Virus record (IMG/VR): IMGVR_UViG_3300046787_000172
Location: 1 to 58,102 of that record
DNA length: 58,102 nt
Direction: 5' to 3' (one strand)
Source: a virus
Shown here: positions 1-58,102 of the stretch, piece after piece
Numbering within the stretch: position 1 is the stretch's first letter
Layout: every line of letters begins with the position of its first letter
Made by a program: the position numbers and the translations under genes
The notes under the pieces: generated by a model
Databases searched by the model: none
The model's input: only the letters and a program-made list of their open reading frames with translations
Told to the model about the DNA's origin: nothing

Positions 1-127
1 GACCAAGTTGCAAAAGCTTTTGGTATTACTGCTGGCCGTGTGCGCCAGATCGGAAACCCAGAAAAACTCGCAGACATCGCTGTGTCCATGGGGTTTAACC
101 GCAACCAAGTGTTCACTGAGCTGGGCA
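1..127. repeat. Terminal direct repeat, left copy
   Basis: The first 127 bases are identical to the last 127 (57976-58102), and the reading frame of the giant gene is continuous when the copies are merged. This is the usual signature of a circular assembly graph. A length of exactly 127 matches a common assembler k-mer, so it is more likely an assembly overlap than a physical phage terminus. The unique genome is then 57,975 bp. Confidence 0.95.
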
Positions 128-3100
128 TTGAGTCGATCAATGAAGAGGCTGTTAACCTGACACAGGACAAAGAGTCTGTTGGCGGAGATGCTGATACCGA
201 GGGGGTGGTGGACGCTGCTGAGGTAGTGGTAGACGACACCGCTGAACGTGATGTTGAAGCTAACGCAGATGACTCTAGGTACTGGCAAAAGTCCAGTACT
301 GCTGGCAGTAAGTTGGCTGTGCAGATGGTACAAATTGCTGATGCCATTGATGCTTTGAGAGCTGCCGCCGCTGAGCTGAAGCAACTTGGCGTATCTGAAG
401 CTGCTGAATCTGTGCAGGCTCGTATTGACGAGCTGACAGCCAAGTCCGACACCCTGATAGCCACAGCGACTGAGAAGGCTGCGCCCAAAGCTGCCCCAGT
501 ATCCAAGGCCACAGCCACTGTCAAAGAAGCCCAGCAGCGTTGGAAAGACGCTGGCCGGGACATCACCAAGCTCTCGTCGGAGGACTTGGGCCTGCTGTTG
601 CCTTACGTGCGTGACACCATCAAAAACACAGAGCTCGCAGGCAAGATCACTGCTGAGCTGCAAAGCCGTGGAGAAGCCAATGCCGTTCAAGTCGAAAGCC
701 CAGCAGGGGTACCTGTTCAGCCAAAAGCCGAAACTGGCAAAGAAGTGGGCCGACAAGTACGGCGTGCCCCAAAGCCTGCCGCAGAAGGCAAAGCCCAAGT
801 CCCAGCCGTCATCCTCACCCAAGCAGAACAAGCCGCTCAAGCGTGGGATGTAGTCGCTGCTGACTTCCCAGAAGCTCCCAAGTTTGCGGACTTGACCAAG
901 GCCCAGCAGAACACCTTCATTGGCTTCGGCCCTGACAACTGGGAGCGCGGTGACGTTGAGCTTGAGTTGACCAAGCTGGCACGCGCTGCTGCGCCTACCC
1001 AGCGAGCCATACGATTGCGCCACGGTACAACCGCAGCCAACAAGGCCATGATAGAGAAGCTCGGACACATGGACCCGGAAGGTGGAGAGCGCCAGTACAC
1101 GTACTCAGAGTTTGGCCGTAAAGCTGTGTATCTAACCCGCCCTGAAGGCTGGTGGCTTGACAAAGAACAAGCCGCTGCTGGGCGTGCCGTTGTTTACGAC
1201 TCTTTTGTGGACGTTGAACTGCCAAGCGATGTAAACGTAGTCACAATAAATAACATGGCTGACTTTGAAGCGCTAGCTAAACGAGTCGGCGAACCAAGCG
1301 CACAGTCAATGGCTAACAAACTTGCCGTAGATGGGCTTGACTGGCTATCAACAGCCAAAGAATTGCGCTCTATCACATTAGACCAAGCAGTTCAAAAGTA
1401 CATTCGTGAGCAGAAACAGAGCGCCGCCAAGTATGGTGGGTTTGATACCGAGGGCGTTAACACCTTAGGCGAGCTGGCTGACTTTTTGAACGCCAATGTA
1501 AACAATCAGTACACTCAAACAACAGAAGCTGAACTGCGTACACGCATTCGCGACAACTGGCTTGACGCAAAGTCTTACGAGCTAAACACGTTTGGCGAAT
1601 CTGATGCAATGACGCAGAAGCTGATTGACGCTGGCGTGGACGTTATTGACATAGCCCCAGACGCAGACGTTGGAGTTGCTGCGGATCAGGTTGTGGTGTT
1701 GCGCCCTGAACTGGTCAAGCTTACCTCGACTGTAAAACAGCAAGAAGCTTTCTTACGTAAGTCGCGCCGCAGCGTCCGCACTGCTGACCAAAGCGGGACT
1801 GAGTTTGAGTCTGTTGAGGCTTCGCTGGACGACTTGTCCGGCTACTCTGAGGGTATCGCCGCTGGTATCCGTAGCCTGCGCAGCTCTGGCATGGGCAACG
1901 CTGTTGACGCCATTGACTCGTGGATGGTTACGTTCTCCCCAGTGTCGTGGGACGCCATCTACACCATGATCGACGGCAAGCGCACCATCATTTACAACGG
2001 TGTGATCCTCAAGGACAAGGTTCTGGCTACCACTGCCACGCTGCACGAAGTCGGCCATGGTATTGATGAGGTACAGGGCGGCGCTGGTAAGTTCTCCGGC
2101 GGTTCTGAGTTCAGAATGTCCCGCGTAAACGGCGAGCTGATGTCTATGCGTCCCGGCACGGTTGCAGACGAACTCTTGAACCACTGGGAAGACAGCAGTG
2201 AGACGTCTGCTTTGGGCGGCATGCTCAACTACCCACTGGACATGACAGACCCGGAAAACCGCTCGCTGACAATGCAAGAACTCCGTGAGGAAGTCTTCGC
2301 ACAGGTGTGGGCTTTTTCCAACATGAATGGCGGCATGGATTACCTCCGTGATAACCTGCCAACGACCTACGCTTTTATGGAGAAGGCACATGAACAAGTC
2401 AAAGCCACAAACTACCAACGCACCCAAGGTGCCCAGCAAGGTGCTCAGTCAGGACAAGTTCAAGCTGAACAGCAAAACGCGCAGCCTGCTGGAGCAATTC
2501 TTAGAGCCAGCCGCCAAGCCAAACAAGGACTGATCGACCGCAACATCGCTAAGCTGCCGAAGATGTCTCAGCAGCCGGTGAAGCGTGTAACCGAAGCCAT
2601 CGGTGATTTGGGTGGCAAGTACCTTGACTACGCCGTCTTTACCAGCGACTTGGTCAAGCGTGCTGTTGCTGCTGGCCTGCCTGCTGCTCAGACTTTCTCC
2701 GACCGCCTTGCTTCACGTAACGCCAAGGTCAGTGAAGAGGAACGCAAGATCGAAAAGATCGCCGACCGCTATGCGTCCATCGAAGATGAGAACAAGGGCT
2801 CCGGTCCCGGCTCGGTCAACGAGTTCTTATTTGAGTCCACCCGCACAGGCAAGTGGGGCTACGGAAAATACCGTGATGCCAAGATGGGCGCTGCGTTCGA
2901 TAAGCTGAAACCCAAGGCTCAGCAGTTCGTCAAAGACGTGTTTGCCCATGGTGATGCCACGCTGTCCAACAAGAAGAAGATTGTCTTGGAGGCAACCAAC
3001 TCCGAGTACGACGCCATGATTAAGGCAGCTCAGGACGCCGGTGACACCAAGACAGAGGCCACCCTCAAGGCTGAGAAAGCCGCCACGCTCAAGCGCTTCC

Positions 3101-5280
3101 AGACACTGTTCCGCATCCGCGATGGTGTACCCTACGCGCCCATCAAGCGCACTGGTTCGTACGTGGTAATTGGCGAGTCCGCTGAGTACCAAAAAGCCAA
3201 GGCCAACAACGACACTGCTACGCTCAAGAAGCTGGAGTCTGACCCAGACCACTACCATGTGTCGTTCACAGACACTAAGTGGCAAGCCCGTAGCCTGCGT
3301 GACAGACTGGCAGAGCAAGGCGTGTTCGCCGACCCGCAAGTTGTTTCGCGCTCTGAGTCGTTTGACGAGGCGTTCAGTGGCGAGGCCATGTTGCCAGCCC
3401 TGACAAAGATGCGTGCCGCTGTGGATCGTCGTGCTCAGGACTCTACTGGCAAGAAAGACCCAACTGCGGGCAAGCTGCTCAACATCATCAACCAGTTGTA
3501 CTTGGAGGCGTTGGCTGAGGGTAGTGCTCGCAAGTCTGAGATGCGTCGTCGTGGTGTGGCCGGTGAAGTGGACATGCTTCAGTCGTTTACCCAGCAGGGT
3601 CGTGCCGATGCCAACTTCTTGGCCAGCGTTGAGTTCGAGCCCAAGATTCAGGACGCCCTGCAGCAGATGCGCAACCAGTCACGCAAGGGTGACCGCGAAC
3701 GCAAGTCGGAAATCTTTGACGAGTTGACCCAACGCTACGCAGGTACGCTGGACCCACAGCCAAGCCCATTTATCAGTGGCTTGACCAACATGGCATCCAA
3801 GTTCTTCTTGGCCTCCAGCCCTGCGTACTACCTGCAGAACTTGACACAGCCGTTCATGATGTCGCTGCCTGCCATGGCAGGTCGCCATGACTACACCAAG
3901 GCCGCTGCAGAGCTGGCTAAAGCGTACGCTGAGCTTGGCCCACTGTTCAAGGATGTGAAGCTGTTTGACGAGCAGTTTGACTTCTCCGCAGTGCCTGCTG
4001 ATGTGCGTAAAGCCATCAACGAGTTGGTCAACCAAGGCAAGATCGACATCGGTCTGGCCACTGAGATCAACGAGTACAAGGTAGAAGCCGACAACAAACT
4101 CAGCAAGTTCGCGCAGCGCCTGAACAAGGGTATGCGTATGGCTGTCCAGAAGGTGGAAGCTACCAACCGCTTGTCTACAGCCATTGCAGCTTACCGACTG
4201 GAGTACGCCAAGACCAAGGACGCTGACAAAGCAACCCAGTACGCTGCTGACATCCTGACTGACACCCATGGCGACTACACCGCCTTTAACGCTCCTCGTG
4301 CGTTTAACACCCAGTGGGGTAAGGTGGCTTTGCAGTTCCGCAAGTTCCAGTTGATCCAGATCGCGTTCTACGCCAAGCTGATTCGTGATGCGTTCACTAA
4401 GCCGGACGAGCGTGCAGCCGCCATGAAGACACTGGCCTACTCGTTGGGTCACACTGGGGTGTTTGCTGGCCTCATGGGCTTGCCCGGCTACGCAGCTATC
4501 TCCGCCATCTTGGGTGCTTTTGGTGACGAGGACGAGCCGTACGATCTGACTGCTGAGATGCGCAAGGCGCTTGGCCCTGAGTGGGCTGACATGATTATGC
4601 GCGGCGCTCCGACCATTGTTGGTATGGACTTGTCCGGCAAGATCGGTGCAGGCAACATGCTGTCCATCATGCCATTCAGTGACGCTGACTTGAGCACCAA
4701 CGCAGGCCGCGCCGAAGCGTTTGGCACCTTGATGGGCGGTGCTGCTCTTGGCATGGCATCTCGCGTGGTAGACGGTCTTGGCTTGATCGCCAGTGGTGAC
4801 TACTACAAGGGTGTTGAGCGTGTGATGCCCAAGGGTGTGTCTGATGCGCTCAAAGCTGGTCGTCAAGCCACTGAGGGTATGACCCGCCGTAATGGTGATG
4901 TGGTCTTGCCTGAGAGCGAAATTGGCGCTATCTCGTCGGTGCTGACAGGTCTGGGCGTGCCATCTGTCCAACAGGCAGTGACTTACGAGCGTCAGAACCG
5001 CATGCGCGATATTACGCAGAACTTCCAAGACCGCACCACGCGTATCAAGAACGACTACGCCCAAGCAGTTCGCCAGAAGGACACTGCCGCCATGCAGCAA
5101 GCTCGTGAGGCATGGACTAAACTCCAGCAAGCACGTCAGCGTAACGGCTTGACACCACAACCAGTATCCAACCTGCTGAAAGCACCGCAGGAACAAGCGC
5201 AGCGTGAGAAGCGTACGATTGGTGGAGTACAGTATCGCGAAGGTCAGCGTAAACTGGCTGAAGATGTAGCAGCCAACTAA
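1..5280 (+). CDS. Giant polyvalent/internal virion protein, C-terminal 1,759 residues (partial; N-terminus at 55954-57975)
   Basis: This continues the gene that starts at 55954; joined at the circular junction it encodes 2,433 residues. Seen in order (joined numbering): a sigma-70 region-4-like helix-turn-helix around 674-695 (VAKAFGITAGRVRQI); an Ala/Lys/Glu-rich coiled or disordered stretch; a block with RLRHGTT near 1012-1018 and AVYLTRPEGWW near 1049-1059 that resembles ADP-ribosyltransferase motifs; an HEVGH zinc-protease motif with His1356, Glu1357 and His1360; a low-complexity Gln/Ala linker; and a long C-terminal part with NLTQP (about 1954) and ALQFRKFQL (about 2117), reminiscent of the PLxRFG/large polyvalent protein C-terminal region. 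Such proteins (DarB-like, polyvalent proteins) are thought to be carried in the virion and ejected with DNA. The position after two ejection-type genes supports this. Enzymatic activities are inference; HEVGH is the clearest. Two small genes are overprinted here. Confidence 0.85.
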   Translation, partial: DQVAKAFGITAGRVRQIGNPEKLADIAVSMGFNRNQVFTELGIESINEEAVNLTQDKESVGGDADTEGVVDAAEVVVDDTAERDVEANADDSRYWQKSSTAGSKLAVQMVQIADAIDALRAAAAELKQLGVSEAAESVQARIDELTAKSDTLIATATEKAAPKAAPVSKATATVKEAQQRWKDAGRDITKLSSEDLGLLLPYVRDTIKNTELAGKITAELQSRGEANAVQVESPAGVPVQPKAETGKEVGRQVRRAPKPAAEGKAQVPAVILTQAEQAAQAWDVVAADFPEAPKFADLTKAQQNTFIGFGPDNWERGDVELELTKLARAAAPTQRAIRLRHGTTAANKAMIEKLGHMDPEGGERQYTYSEFGRKAVYLTRPEGWWLDKEQAAAGRAVVYDSFVDVELPSDVNVVTINNMADFEALAKRVGEPSAQSMANKLAVDGLDWLSTAKELRSITLDQAVQKYIREQKQSAAKYGGFDTEGVNTLGELADFLNANVNNQYTQTTEAELRTRIRDNWLDAKSYELNTFGESDAMTQKLIDAGVDVIDIAPDADVGVAADQVVVLRPELVKLTSTVKQQEAFLRKSRRSVRTADQSGTEFESVEASLDDLSGYSEGIAAGIRSLRSSGMGNAVDAIDSWMVTFSPVSWDAIYTMIDGKRTIIYNGVILKDKVLATTATLHEVGHGIDEVQGGAGKFSGGSEFRMSRVNGELMSMRPGTVADELLNHWEDSSETSALGGMLNYPLDMTDPENRSLTMQELREEVFAQVWAFSNMNGGMDYLRDNLPTTYAFMEKAHEQVKATNYQRTQGAQQGAQSGQVQAEQQNAQPAGAILRASRQAKQGLIDRNIAKLPKMSQQPVKRVTEAIGDLGGKYLDYAVFTSDLVKRAVAAGLPAAQTFSDRLASRNAKVSEEERKIEKIADRYASIEDENKGSGPGSVNEFLFESTRTGKWGYGKYRDAKMGAAFDKLKPKAQQFVKDVFAHGDATLSNKKKIVLEATNSEYDAMIKAAQDAGDTKTEATLKAEKAATLKRFQTLFRIRDGVPYAPIKRTGSYVVIGESAEYQKAKANNDTATLKKLESDPDHYHVSFTDTKWQARSLRDRLAEQGVFADPQVVSRSESFDEAFSGEAMLPALTKMRAAVDRRAQDSTGKKDPTAGKLLNIINQLYLEALAEGSARKSEMRRRGVAGEVDMLQSFTQQGRADANFLASVEFEPKIQDALQQMRNQSRKGDRERKSEIFDELTQRYAGTLDPQPSPFISGLTNMASKFFLASSPAYYLQNLTQPFMMSLPAMAGRHDYTKAAAELAKAYAELGPLFKDVKLFDEQFDFSAVPADVRKAINELVNQGKIDIGLATEINEYKVEADNKLSKFAQRLNKGMRMAVQKVEATNRLSTAIAAYRLEYAKTKDADKATQYAADILTDTHGDYTAFNAPRAFNTQWGKVALQFRKFQLIQIAFYAKLIRDAFTKPDERAAAMKTLAYSLGHTGVFAGLMGLPGYAAISAILGAFGDEDEPYDLTAEMRKALGPEWADMIMRGAPTIVGMDLSGKIGAGNMLSIMPFSDADLSTNAGRAEAFGTLMGGAALGMASRVVDGLGLIASGDYYKGVERVMPKGVSDALKAGRQATEGMTRRNGDVVLPESEIGAISSVLTGLGVPSVQQAVTYERQNRMRDITQNFQDRTTRIKNDYAQAVRQKDTAAMQQAREAWTKLQQARQRNGLTPQPVSNLLKAPQEQAQREKRTIGGVQYREGQRKLAEDVAAN
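680..853 (+). CDS. Overprinted small protein (57 aa, PFKSKAQQ family) inside the giant gene
   Basis: The ATG at 680 has GGAG six bases upstream and opens a 57-codon frame, +1 relative to the giant gene. The product begins MPFKSKAQQGYLF and continues with KWADKYGVP. This looks like a small phage protein type I know as a free-standing gene (PFKSKAQxxYLF...KxWAxxYGVPxxLP, with a basic tail). In the giant gene's frame the same DNA encodes a low-complexity linker that could tolerate overprinting. A longer extension to 611 is open but adds unrelated residues and has no better start signal. Function unknown; the Lys-rich composition suggests nucleic-acid contact. Confidence 0.75.
   Translation: MPFKSKAQQGYLFSQKPKLAKKWADKYGVPQSLPQKAKPKSQPSSSPKQNKPLKRGM
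2390..2533 (+). CDS. Overprinted small basic protein (47 aa) inside the giant gene
   Basis: The ATG at 2390 follows GGAGAAGGCAC, a good Shine-Dalgarno. It opens 47 codons in the +1 frame of the giant gene. The product is hydrophilic and basic with a plausible C-terminal helix (KTRSLLEQFLEP). In the giant frame this DNA encodes a Gln/Ala-rich linker between the HEVGH domain and the next folded block. I do not recognise the family, so the support is the start signal, the linker location and the parallel with the genes at 680 and 57380. Confidence 0.5.
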   Translation: MNKSKPQTTNAPKVPSKVLSQDKFKLNSKTRSLLEQFLEPAAKPNKD

Positions 5281-54251: not shown

Positions 54252-55922
54252 ATGGCAGATTTCTTCAGAGGCCTCGCCGGTGGCATGCAAACCGGCCTTC
54301 AGTTTGGGCGAGCCATGCAAGAGCGTCAAGAGCGCGAACGTCTGCGTGAAGCCATGGGGCTTACCCCACAAGAGATGCAGCAGCGTCAGGCATCGCCAGA
54401 AGAACTGGGCCGCGCACAGGCGGAGACCCAAGCACTTGCTGCTGAAGACGCAAGAATGTTTGGACTTGGCCCACAAGAGCAGGCTGCATACGCCCCCCAG
54501 ATGCCCGTCGAAGGCCAGCGTGTCGGACTGCCACGATACCAGCTTGCCGGTCAGACATACGACCGCGCACCCACACAGCAGGAAATCCAGCAAGCTCGAT
54601 ACGGAGCCATGGCCGATGTGATCGCTGAGCGTGATCCTGCGCGTGCAATGGAAATGCGCCAGCGTCTGGAAGATCAGTTGTATCAAGCTAAAGAGCGCCC
54701 GCTTCGGTTGCAACAACTGGAAGGTCAAATCGCTGGACAGAAAACACAGCAGCGGCTTGCTGACGTTGGCTTAACCAAAGCTGAACGCGACCTTCAACAA
54801 ACACTGAGTTTCGATAGCGCGTTCGCAAAGATTAACGAAACCAAGTACGAAAAGCCAGAAGACCGAGACGCTGCTGTTTTAGCTGCTGTTGAGCAATTTA
54901 AAGGTCCAGAAGCCAAAGCAGCGTTGCAAAAAGATTACAGCGCCCTAGAACGTGACAAAATTGCGAAAGATGGTTTGAAGTTTGACCAAACTATCAAGCA
55001 GGCCCGCCTCAAAGGGCCAGCCGCAGCGCTCAAAGCCATTGACGACCTGAACGACAGTTTTAAGCTGGAGATTGACGGCTTTAACGTAACGCAGGTCAAC
55101 AACGATGGTACTCGGGTTCCGTTTCTGTCAGCAAAAACAGCTGACGAGTTTGCACTTAGCGTGGACTCGAGGATCAAAGAAGGTGGCGCTTTTGAGTTGG
55201 CCAAGTTCCGTCAAGATGAGCAGACAAAAGCTGCACAGATTGGCTACTACAACGCATTGGCAAAGAAGGCTGCTTCCGAAGGTGGGGCTGCTGCCAACCA
55301 ACTGTCTGGCGTACAAGTGGGTTATGCACGAGACCCAAAGACAGGTCAGCCAGTTCAAATTATGAGCGCCCTTCGTTTTAACAAGCGAACAGGTGATCTG
55401 GAGAGCGTGCAGGTTCCGCTTGAGCAGAACGTCGTCCCCGCAGCTGCGCTGGACCCAAAAAAGATTTCTGAAGCTGCTGAGCTGATGGTTGGCACACCAG
55501 TAGACCCGACAAACAAAAAGGGTCCGCAACACACTTTCCAAACAGCGCGGCAAGCTGTTACGGATCAGATTTTCAACCAATACTTGGGCACTGGAGATAC
55601 TGCGGCTGACCTCGATCCAAAAGGATTGGCGGCAAAGATTCTGGCTGGGCAACAACCAGCTGCTGCAACGCCTGCACAAAAACCCGCAAGAACTCCAGCC
55701 GCTGTTGGCATTGATCCAAACAGACCGCAGGCAGCGATAAACCCCGTTACGGGTCTTCCACGTGAAACGCCTGTAGGCGCACCAAACTTGGTTGCTGCTG
55801 TGGGTCAGGGGCTAGATGCAGGTCAGGCTCGCTACAAAGCCTATTTAGAGTCTAAAATAGCCAACAGACAACCGCTGACGGCAGACGAAAAAATTCGAGC
55901 GCAGAGGTTTGGCTTACAGTAA
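54252..55922 (+). CDS. Internal virion/ejection protein (556 aa)
   Basis: N-terminus MADFFRGLAGGMQTGLQFGR, then Gln/Glu/Arg-rich coils for 200 residues, a mixed middle (KLEIDGFNVTQVNNDGTRVP) and a Pro/Ala linker (QQPAAATPAQKPARTP). Its size, coiled character and position between the gp14-like gene and the giant gene match gp15-type ejection proteins. It starts two bases after the previous stop. Confidence 0.65.
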   Translation: MADFFRGLAGGMQTGLQFGRAMQERQERERLREAMGLTPQEMQQRQASPEELGRAQAETQALAAEDARMFGLGPQEQAAYAPQMPVEGQRVGLPRYQLAGQTYDRAPTQQEIQQARYGAMADVIAERDPARAMEMRQRLEDQLYQAKERPLRLQQLEGQIAGQKTQQRLADVGLTKAERDLQQTLSFDSAFAKINETKYEKPEDRDAAVLAAVEQFKGPEAKAALQKDYSALERDKIAKDGLKFDQTIKQARLKGPAAALKAIDDLNDSFKLEIDGFNVTQVNNDGTRVPFLSAKTADEFALSVDSRIKEGGAFELAKFRQDEQTKAAQIGYYNALAKKAASEGGAAANQLSGVQVGYARDPKTGQPVQIMSALRFNKRTGDLESVQVPLEQNVVPAAALDPKKISEAAELMVGTPVDPTNKKGPQHTFQTARQAVTDQIFNQYLGTGDTAADLDPKGLAAKILAGQQPAAATPAQKPARTPAAVGIDPNRPQAAINPVTGLPRETPVGAPNLVAAVGQGLDAGQARYKAYLESKIANRQPLTADEKIRAQRFGLQ

Positions 55923-55953
55923 CGTGTAGTTCAAGCGAAGTAAAGGTGCCCCC

Positions 55954-58102
55954 ATGCCGTCTATTGCAGACCTGCGATCCGCCCTTGGGGCGTTTGCCAA
56001 CGACAAAAGCGATGAGCAGCTTCTGCAACTAGCTTCCACTGCGGCGGGGGTTTCCCCGGGCCGTATTGCTTCTGAGTATGGCTACAAGCCAACGGAATCC
56101 GGCGTTGCAGGGCTTCGCACTGGCGCTGCCATTGACCGCTATCAGGCAGGTCTGTATGGGCTGGGCGAGGCTGTTACCGGCGCTGACTTCTTTCGTCGCG
56201 GTCGCGAAGCCAATGAGTTTGAAGCCAACGTAGCATCTGAACGTGCTCGCGCTCAAGGCGCAATTGAGAGCTTTGAAGACGTCCAAGGTATTTCTGACCT
56301 GCCAAGCTATGTTGGTGGTTTGGCCATTGGCTCTGCCCCTTACATGGTTGAAGCCCTTGGCGGCGGTTTGGCTGCTCGCGGGTTGATGTCTGGCACTCGT
56401 GCCGCTCTGGGTACTGCCCGGGCTGCCGGTGACGTTGGTGCTGCTGCACAAGCCACTCGAGCGTTGCGTGCTGGCCAAACTGTTGGCGGTGTAGCTGCTG
56501 GTTATCCATCAGCAGTTGGTGACATTTTGCAATCGCAACGAGAGCAAGCCGACGGTCAGATTGACTTGGGTGCTGCGGCAGCGCTCGGCGTGCCGTACTC
56601 GGCGCTCAACGCTTTGGGCATTGAAGGTGCGCTGGCACGGCAGCAAGGTATTCGCTCGGGCATTGCCGCTTTGGATAGTATTCAAGGTCTGCGTGGCGGT
56701 CTTGCACGTGCTGGGGCTTCTGGTGTACGTACCGCTGGTATAGAAGGCGGCACCGAGACTCTGCAGGAGATGACCAGCCAGCTTGGTCGCATGGCCGTTG
56801 ACCCAAATGAAGCGTTTTTGTCCGATGCTGCGCTGGGTCGTTACAAAGAATCCGCCATCGGTGGCGCATTGCTCGGCGGTACTATTGGTGGCGCTACAGG
56901 CTTTGGCCGCAGTGAAGGTTACCGAGCTCCCATGCAGGAGCGCGACCTGACTCAGGAAGACACAAGTACCGAGCAAAAACCAGTTCTTGGTTTGCAGTAC
57001 AACCCACTTGCAGGCACTCCAATTGTTTTCCCGGATGGCACTGTTGCCTTGGGTAGTGAGCAGGAAATGCTGGCCCGCACTGGTATCAAAATGCCTGCCG
57101 CTGGCGAAACAGACCTGACTGCGCCTGCAGCTACAACTGCTGCACCTGCCGGTGAAACTAAACCGACAGTGCCGTCCATCTTCAGCGAAACAGATACTGC
57201 ACTGAACAAACTTGGTGTCAAGCCTACAAAGAATTCTCGCGGCATCTACGACTACTTGGTGGCCGAGGGCATCGACCCTGCTTCACCAGAAGCTGAACCA
57301 GTACTGAACGCTTTGGCCAGTAGCAAACTTGGCGAAGCCCGCAAGGCCGTTGGCGAAATCATTCGAGCAAGGAGTCCCCGTGGCACAGGAGTTTCTACTG
57401 TACAGCAGCCTGCAGGAGGCGTGGGAGTCGGGGGCGCTGTCGTTCAAGGAAGCGTGGGAAATGCAAGACCAGCTACTCCTGTCGCGGGAGCAGTGGTCGG
57501 AGGTACCCCAGTCACTGGAGCCCCACTTCAACAAGCTGGCATTCTTCCAGTCGCCAGCGGCCAACCATCTACCACTGTAACTACCGGAGCACCAAGTGGC
57601 ACTCAAGCCCCTCAAACCATCCAAGCAGCGCCGCAAGGACAAACAACCACCAGAGGTGCCGCTGGTACCACTACGGTAAAGCCAAACACGACCCTGCGTC
57701 TGACTAAGCAAGAAGACATTAAAGACCCAGACGCCGCGCTGGCTGACTTCGTTGAGATCGCTCGTGAGACCGGCAACACCGCTGGCATTGACGCAGCCTT
57801 GGCCGATGCTGCCAACAAGCGTCAGGATCAAAGGGATTTCACGAAGGCTGACCTCGACGAGATCATTGAGGCCCAACTTGGCAAGGGCAAAAACAAAGAG
57901 CGAGACCGCCAAATCTTGCGTGCCTACGTGCTTGCGCGTAAATCCGTTCCAGACAAGGATAAGGGCAGAGTTGTTGACCAAGTTGCAAAAGCTTTTGGTA
58001 TTACTGCTGGCCGTGTGCGCCAGATCGGAAACCCAGAAAAACTCGCAGACATCGCTGTGTCCATGGGGTTTAACCGCAACCAAGTGTTCACTGAGCTGGG
58101 CA
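55954..58102 (+). CDS. Giant polyvalent/internal virion protein, N-terminal part (continues at 1-5280)
   Basis: The ATG follows AAAGGTGCCCCC. The frame is open through the end of the window and rejoins at base 1; unique coding up to 57975 gives 674 residues of 2,433. Seen: SIADLRSALGAFANDKSDEQ; a helical hydrophobic Gly/Ala-rich region (about 115-325) that could enter membranes (SYVGGLAIGSAPYMVEALGG; AAIGG-type repeats); a Pro/Ala/Gly/Thr low-complexity linker (about 470-580); a helical part (EDIKDPDAALADFVEIARET); then the HTH that spans the junction. A membrane-active N-terminus suits an ejected internal protein such as T7 gp16, but similarity is only of style. A small gene is overprinted in the linker. 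Confidence 0.85.
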   Translation, partial: MPSIADLRSALGAFANDKSDEQLLQLASTAAGVSPGRIASEYGYKPTESGVAGLRTGAAIDRYQAGLYGLGEAVTGADFFRRGREANEFEANVASERARAQGAIESFEDVQGISDLPSYVGGLAIGSAPYMVEALGGGLAARGLMSGTRAALGTARAAGDVGAAAQATRALRAGQTVGGVAAGYPSAVGDILQSQREQADGQIDLGAAAALGVPYSALNALGIEGALARQQGIRSGIAALDSIQGLRGGLARAGASGVRTAGIEGGTETLQEMTSQLGRMAVDPNEAFLSDAALGRYKESAIGGALLGGTIGGATGFGRSEGYRAPMQERDLTQEDTSTEQKPVLGLQYNPLAGTPIVFPDGTVALGSEQEMLARTGIKMPAAGETDLTAPAATTAAPAGETKPTVPSIFSETDTALNKLGVKPTKNSRGIYDYLVAEGIDPASPEAEPVLNALASSKLGEARKAVGEIIRARSPRGTGVSTVQQPAGGVGVGGAVVQGSVGNARPATPVAGAVVGGTPVTGAPLQQAGILPVASGQPSTTVTTGAPSGTQAPQTIQAAPQGQTTTRGAAGTTTVKPNTTLRLTKQEDIKDPDAALADFVEIARETGNTAGIDAALADAANKRQDQRDFTKADLDEIIEAQLGKGKNKERDRQILRAYVLARKSVPDKDKGRVVDQVAKAFGITAGRVRQIGNPEKLADIAVSMGFNRNQVFTELG
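57380..57580 (+). CDS. Overprinted small protein (66 aa) in the giant gene's linker, GTG start
   Basis: AAGGAG at 57369-57374 lies five bases before the GTG at 57380. The frame is +1 to the giant gene. The product looks globular and helical, with normal amino-acid use (QEFLLYSSLQEAWESGALSF, KEAWEMQDQLLLSREQWSEV, PHFNKLAFF), while the giant frame here is low-complexity Gly/Val/Thr/Pro. That contrast suggests the small protein is the constrained one. Family not identified. Confidence 0.65.
   Translation: MAQEFLLYSSLQEAWESGALSFKEAWEMQDQLLLSREQWSEVPQSLEPHFNKLAFFQSPAANHLPL
57976..58102. repeat. Terminal direct repeat, right copy
   Basis: Exact copy of bases 1-127. Both copies encode the same part of the giant gene (the HTH and following residues), in the same frame. 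Confidence 0.95.

Follow-up and report, generated by a model that had tools for sequence, protein, structure and literature searches.

The window analysed here is the whole of an IMG/VR virus record, 58,102 nucleotides in length, whose two ends carry an exact repeat of 127 bp (positions 1-127 are identical to 57976-58102), which means that the contig closes as a circle. The giant gene of this podovirus-like phage, its largest, crosses the circular junction and has a joined length of 2433 aa. Nested within it are a small gene of 66 codons and further ORFs in the +1 frame (Table 1). The host ORF begins at 55954, and the small gene is offset from it by 1 (mod 3), as are the ORFs at 680 and 2387; the original prediction that the three share a frame was therefore correct, except that the ATG of the third is at 2387 and not at 2390. 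Five bases (TCCCC) separate AAGGAG from the GTG, and the TAA stop occupies 57578-57580, so that the predicted start signal, spacing and length of the small gene are all confirmed (57369-57374 for AAGGAG and 57380 for the GTG). A scan of 55700-58000 found no sigma-70 promoter-like site for the nested gene, and a separate promoter is therefore unsupported by that scan.

Table 1. Positions of the giant gene, of the ORFs nested within it and of a nested gene from the sister clade.
Feature	Position	Strand	Remarks
Giant host gene, 5' part, DarB-like	55954..58102	+	continues at window 128-5280
Giant host gene, 3' part	1..5280	+	first 127 bases are the repeat of the window end
Shine-Dalgarno AAGGAG of nested gene	57369..57374	+	from sequence; GGAG element before the start kept in homologous loci
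Nested gene, 66 aa, GTG start, TAA stop	57380..57580	+	+1 frame of giant gene; conservation and dN/dS
Second nested gene, MPFKSKAQQ..., 57 aa	680..853	+	+1 frame of same giant gene; same inverted selection signature
Third +1 ORF, MNKSKPQ..., about 48 codons	2387..2533	+	weaker case
Sister-clade nested gene, MENCNCK...	L172:8001-8258 (example of L172-L189)		+1 frame; conservation and dN/dS

The C-terminal region of the giant protein, encoded by the 3' part, matches the DarB-like antirestriction family phrog_10089 of PHROG (E 2e-63). A methylase-helicase dyad is a feature of P1 DarB. Since the giant protein gave no match to a Pfam methylase or helicase, it is DarB-like by its C-terminal region only and is not DarB proper. 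In tblastn searches its 3' part was 23-29% identical to the giants of phages of about 60 kb from Serratia, Erwinia, Klebsiella, Pseudomonas and Rhizobium, and the terminase relatives had identities of 39% or less. For the 5' part of this giant the phage collection held no match, and bacterial genomes searched with both the 66-aa and the giant protein yielded no relative of either.

The 66-aa protein is acidic, with a pI of 4.5 and a charge of about -6. It had been described as globular-looking, and AlphaFold2 does predict three helices (residues 2-17, 22-37 and 44-57), but with a mean pLDDT of only 67.6, so that confidence in the fold is modest. A Foldseek search with the predicted structure returned nothing significant, and the protein matched no PHROG, Pfam, NCBIfam or PADLOC family. 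The best phage match, to a portal profile, was rejected as not credible (12 of 24 members, E 0.04-0.11, best 0.043). The window encodes the protein only once, the phage collection held no credible match to it, and no stand-alone relative was found by the IMG/VR profile scan or in bacterial genomes.

Scanning IMG/VR with the protein itself recovered 28 contigs at 68-91% identity, and with a profile of it 31 contigs. In all 31 the small ORF sits in the +1 frame within a long ORF of the same giant gene, the relation of the two frames being constant. At the homologous loci a GGAG element precedes a GTG, TTG or ATG start codon, and this element is kept despite several types of surrounding upstream sequence. 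The +1 frame and the Shine-Dalgarno/start pair, on whose conservation in relatives the original prediction had been staked, are thus both conserved in 31 contigs. Relatives were also fetched by the host C-terminus alone, in order to avoid choosing them via the small gene. Eighteen of the loci found in this way contain the small gene according to the profile, and in a nineteenth contig (L089) it is placed near the other end; three loci (L037, L042 and L047) have sequence that stops short of the site. The gene is absent from L052 and L053, with 66% and 56% host identity, respectively, and from the remote L054-L060 (24-31% host identity).

Selection in the two frames was estimated with our own implementation, which reconstructs changes by parsimony, classes each by its consequence for either protein and sets them against the neutral expectation. 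It follows the spirit of OLGenie, a frame-specific dN/dS method (PMC7531306), and is not that program itself. For 30 distinct sequences of the small gene, w_alt (small frame) was 0.32 (95% 0.20-0.46) and w_host 1.13 (95% 0.79-1.70). The calculation was repeated on the 20 sequences, the window included, that were also found by the host search, as a check for any bias caused by having used the small protein as query, and gave w_alt 0.35 and w_host 1.11. The dN/dS comparison over relatives that had been proposed as a check of the gene therefore indicates purifying selection on the +1 frame. The +2 frame was rejected as an alternative coding frame (w 3.3). The pattern is opposite in 14 control segments of 66 codons from the same giant gene, where w_alt was 0.78-1.24 and w_host 0.22-0.39. 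Parsimony events at small-gene codon positions 1, 2 and 3 numbered 84, 69 and 211, so that the wobble position of the small frame, which is position 1 of the host frame, is the most variable. When 241 sliding windows were placed along the giant gene, variability at host position 1 exceeded that at position 3 in two islands only, the 57380 and 680 genes.

It could be argued that the small ORF arose by chance within a stretch conserved for the giant protein, particularly as long chance ORFs are common in the window, which holds 330 ORFs of 60 aa or more. This explanation, which we consider to have almost no probability, is refuted by the near neutrality of the host frame exactly here and the opposite behaviour of the control segments; furthermore, only in the 57380 and 680 islands do all full-length homologues keep the +1 frame free of stops. 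The small protein is therefore the constrained product, and the giant protein at this place is a near-neutral passenger linker. Its residues across the nested gene are rich in G, V, A, P, T, Q and S, which bears out the earlier description of a host frame reduced to Gly/Val/Pro/Thr. About 16 host-frame stops would be expected across the small gene in an unconstrained frame and none was seen, which means that both frames are in use, the small one being kept for its sequence and the host one mainly for its openness. The synonymous codon usage score was 0.06 for the small frame and -0.17 for the host frame, compared with 0.16 +/- 0.11 for 66-codon pieces of true genes, placing the small frame within the range of the genome and the host frame well below it. 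Codon usage and the near-neutral host dN/dS together suggest that the dominant frame is that of the small gene, across which the giant ORF reads, and that the small gene is less a squatter in a pre-existing linker.

The surroundings of the small gene are variable. The giant proteins fall into seven N-terminal clusters (50% identity cut) that are mutually distant, and the start of the small gene corresponds to host codon 418-523. Several types of sequence are found on each side of the gene, in combinations that violate the four-gamete rule, and in L068 and L075 the gene and its upstream sequence are 99-100% identical and the downstream sequence 29%, the switch lying near the stop codon. These shuffled flanks and the position of the switch make the small gene a conserved island amid exchangeable modules, and from the sequences compared it is likely to be a place of crossover. 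A separate observation from window positions 55954-57360 and L061-L091 is that the N-terminal part of the giant gene has been swapped among at least seven divergent module types.

Such an island, set between shuffled upstream and downstream modules whose flank types break the four-gamete rule, would also be expected if the conserved entity were the DNA or RNA itself, either as a recombination hinge between exchangeable modules or as an RNA element, with no protein involved. We consider this very unlikely. The variation is concentrated at third positions of the +1 frame, where it is synonymous; the start codon remains a start and the Shine-Dalgarno sequence is kept while bases change; a deletion of 39 nt in L027 preserves the frame; and the codon usage fits the +1 frame. 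Judged from the sequence evidence, it is highly probable that the ORF starting at 57380 is a functional protein-coding gene, contained entirely within a linker of the giant DarB-like gene and read in the +1 frame relative to it. Ribosomes initiating independently at the internal AAGGAG/GTG would probably produce the acidic, mostly helical protein of 66 aa, and other ribosomes would read through in the host frame to produce a flexible Gly/Val/Pro/Thr/Ala linker. We infer the translation, timing and role of the small protein; initiation at a GTG or TTG within another gene might keep its expression low.

The 680 gene passes the same selection test in the clade of the window. Its protein is widespread, with 347 confirmed stretches of which 80 were kept (L092-L171), and the gene stands alone in some phages (e.g. 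L108 and L136) and is nested in giant ORFs elsewhere (e.g. L166 and L169). In many phages (L103, L105, L106, L107, L110, L112, L114 and others) the 680-type protein was seen to overlap, in the +1 frame, an open frame of about 405 codons. The 2387 ORF was found in 9 of the 25 sequences of the host set, with a w of about 0.5 over eight of them, and is probably, though not proven to be, a functional nested gene.

In the sister clade, L052 carries an unrelated +1 ORF of 86 aa (MENCNCK...) with AAAGGAG ahead of its ATG. This gene, of 72-86 aa, was found in 18 contigs, in each case nested in the +1 frame within a long ORF, and w_alt of 0.35-0.57 and w_host of 1.3-1.8 indicate purifying selection on the nested frame. 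The host proteins of the window and of L172 (the same contig as L052) are 51% identical at the N-terminus, 51% identical in the C-terminal half and hardly alignable in between. The 57380 and MENCNCK genes both lie in this poorly aligned interval, followed in each case by the 680-type gene about 430 codons later, and where we speak of the same slot in the window and the sister clade a shared interval is meant, not aligned sequence. The proposal that disordered linkers serve as space for small genes is accordingly supported for the 57380 and 680 genes, is weaker for the 2387 ORF, and gains strength from the sister clade, whose corresponding linker holds a nested gene of unrelated sequence. Two other features of +1 frames were noted: a candidate nested ORF of 54 aa with AAGGAG/GTG in a giant gene linker of a single contig (L100:3038-3199), and, in a remote giant gene, a tandem repeat of the KPKLNQ type (L059:7362-7679).

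One possible history is that the small frame is older than the host frame here: a gene once standing alone would have been captured when giant-gene modules joined across it, its alternative open frame turning into the linker. The atypical host codon usage over the gene and the normal usage of the small frame favour this, as does the 680-type gene, which occurs both alone and nested; on the other hand, codon usage mirrors present selection as well as age, and the stand-alone form has been found for the 680 type and not for the 66-aa gene. The chances of this history seem to us almost even.

For the function of the protein, two possibilities appear about as likely as each other. In the Bcep22-like podovirus JC1, mass spectrometry placed the DarB-like giant among the virion proteins, and the same work notes that the P1 Dar system requires additional proteins (PMC9144972). 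Together these lead to the guess, a tentative one by analogy, that the 66-aa protein might be a small late partner of the surrounding giant virion protein, acting as a cofactor of assembly, packaging or ejection. It is also possible, at a similarly guarded level, that it is an independent factor, for example in counter-defence or host takeover, using the linker merely as coding space. A small acidic protein confined to one clade would fit this, and the unrelated gene in the corresponding place of the sister clade is what accessory factors would show; however, the protein has no similarity to PADLOC, Pfam or PHROG families, and the gene is kept in the close relatives that can be checked, beyond what is seen for most accessory genes.

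The usual picture is inverted at this locus, with the giant frame as passenger and the hidden, unannotated frame under selection, and the nested gene accounts for a conserved island in an otherwise module-shuffled giant gene. Gene callers normally suppress fully nested ORFs, and such genes would therefore be missing from phage annotation and protein databases. The two unrelated genes in the linkers of sister clades, together with the 680 gene, lead to a testable general idea, that in giant phage proteins the disordered linkers serve as coding space. In an extended form, to which we would give somewhat less than an even chance, the linkers of modular giant virion genes would be standing +1 slots in which small genes are captured, exchanged and lost, supplying homology for the shuffling of neighbouring modules while their alternative frame doubles as a flexible linker.

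The host gene resembles the DarB-like or polyvalent giants (PMC5512222), including that of the Bcep22-like JC1 (PMC9144972), in its C-terminal region. The polyvalent-protein paper (PMC5512222) nowhere uses the term "overlapping", and in our literature search we came across no account of nested +1 genes in giants of this kind. Overlapping phage genes as such are already known; the novelty here lies in the inverted constraint and in the fact that sister clades carry unrelated nested genes in the corresponding linker. Fully nested phage overlaps include Rz1 within Rz of lambda and E within D of phiX174. Like these, the present gene is small and complete, is read in a different frame from the larger gene around it and has a start signal of its own; it differs from them in that the host is a giant modular gene whose frame is near neutral and merely open, the constraint lying on the small frame. 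A review of overprinted viral genes (PMC8227390) regards overprinting as the emergence of a new frame within an older gene. The overprinted viral genes share with this locus the coding of two proteins by one stretch of DNA and their recognition by selection in each frame, whereas here the codon usage suggests a small frame that may be no younger than the linker reading across it.
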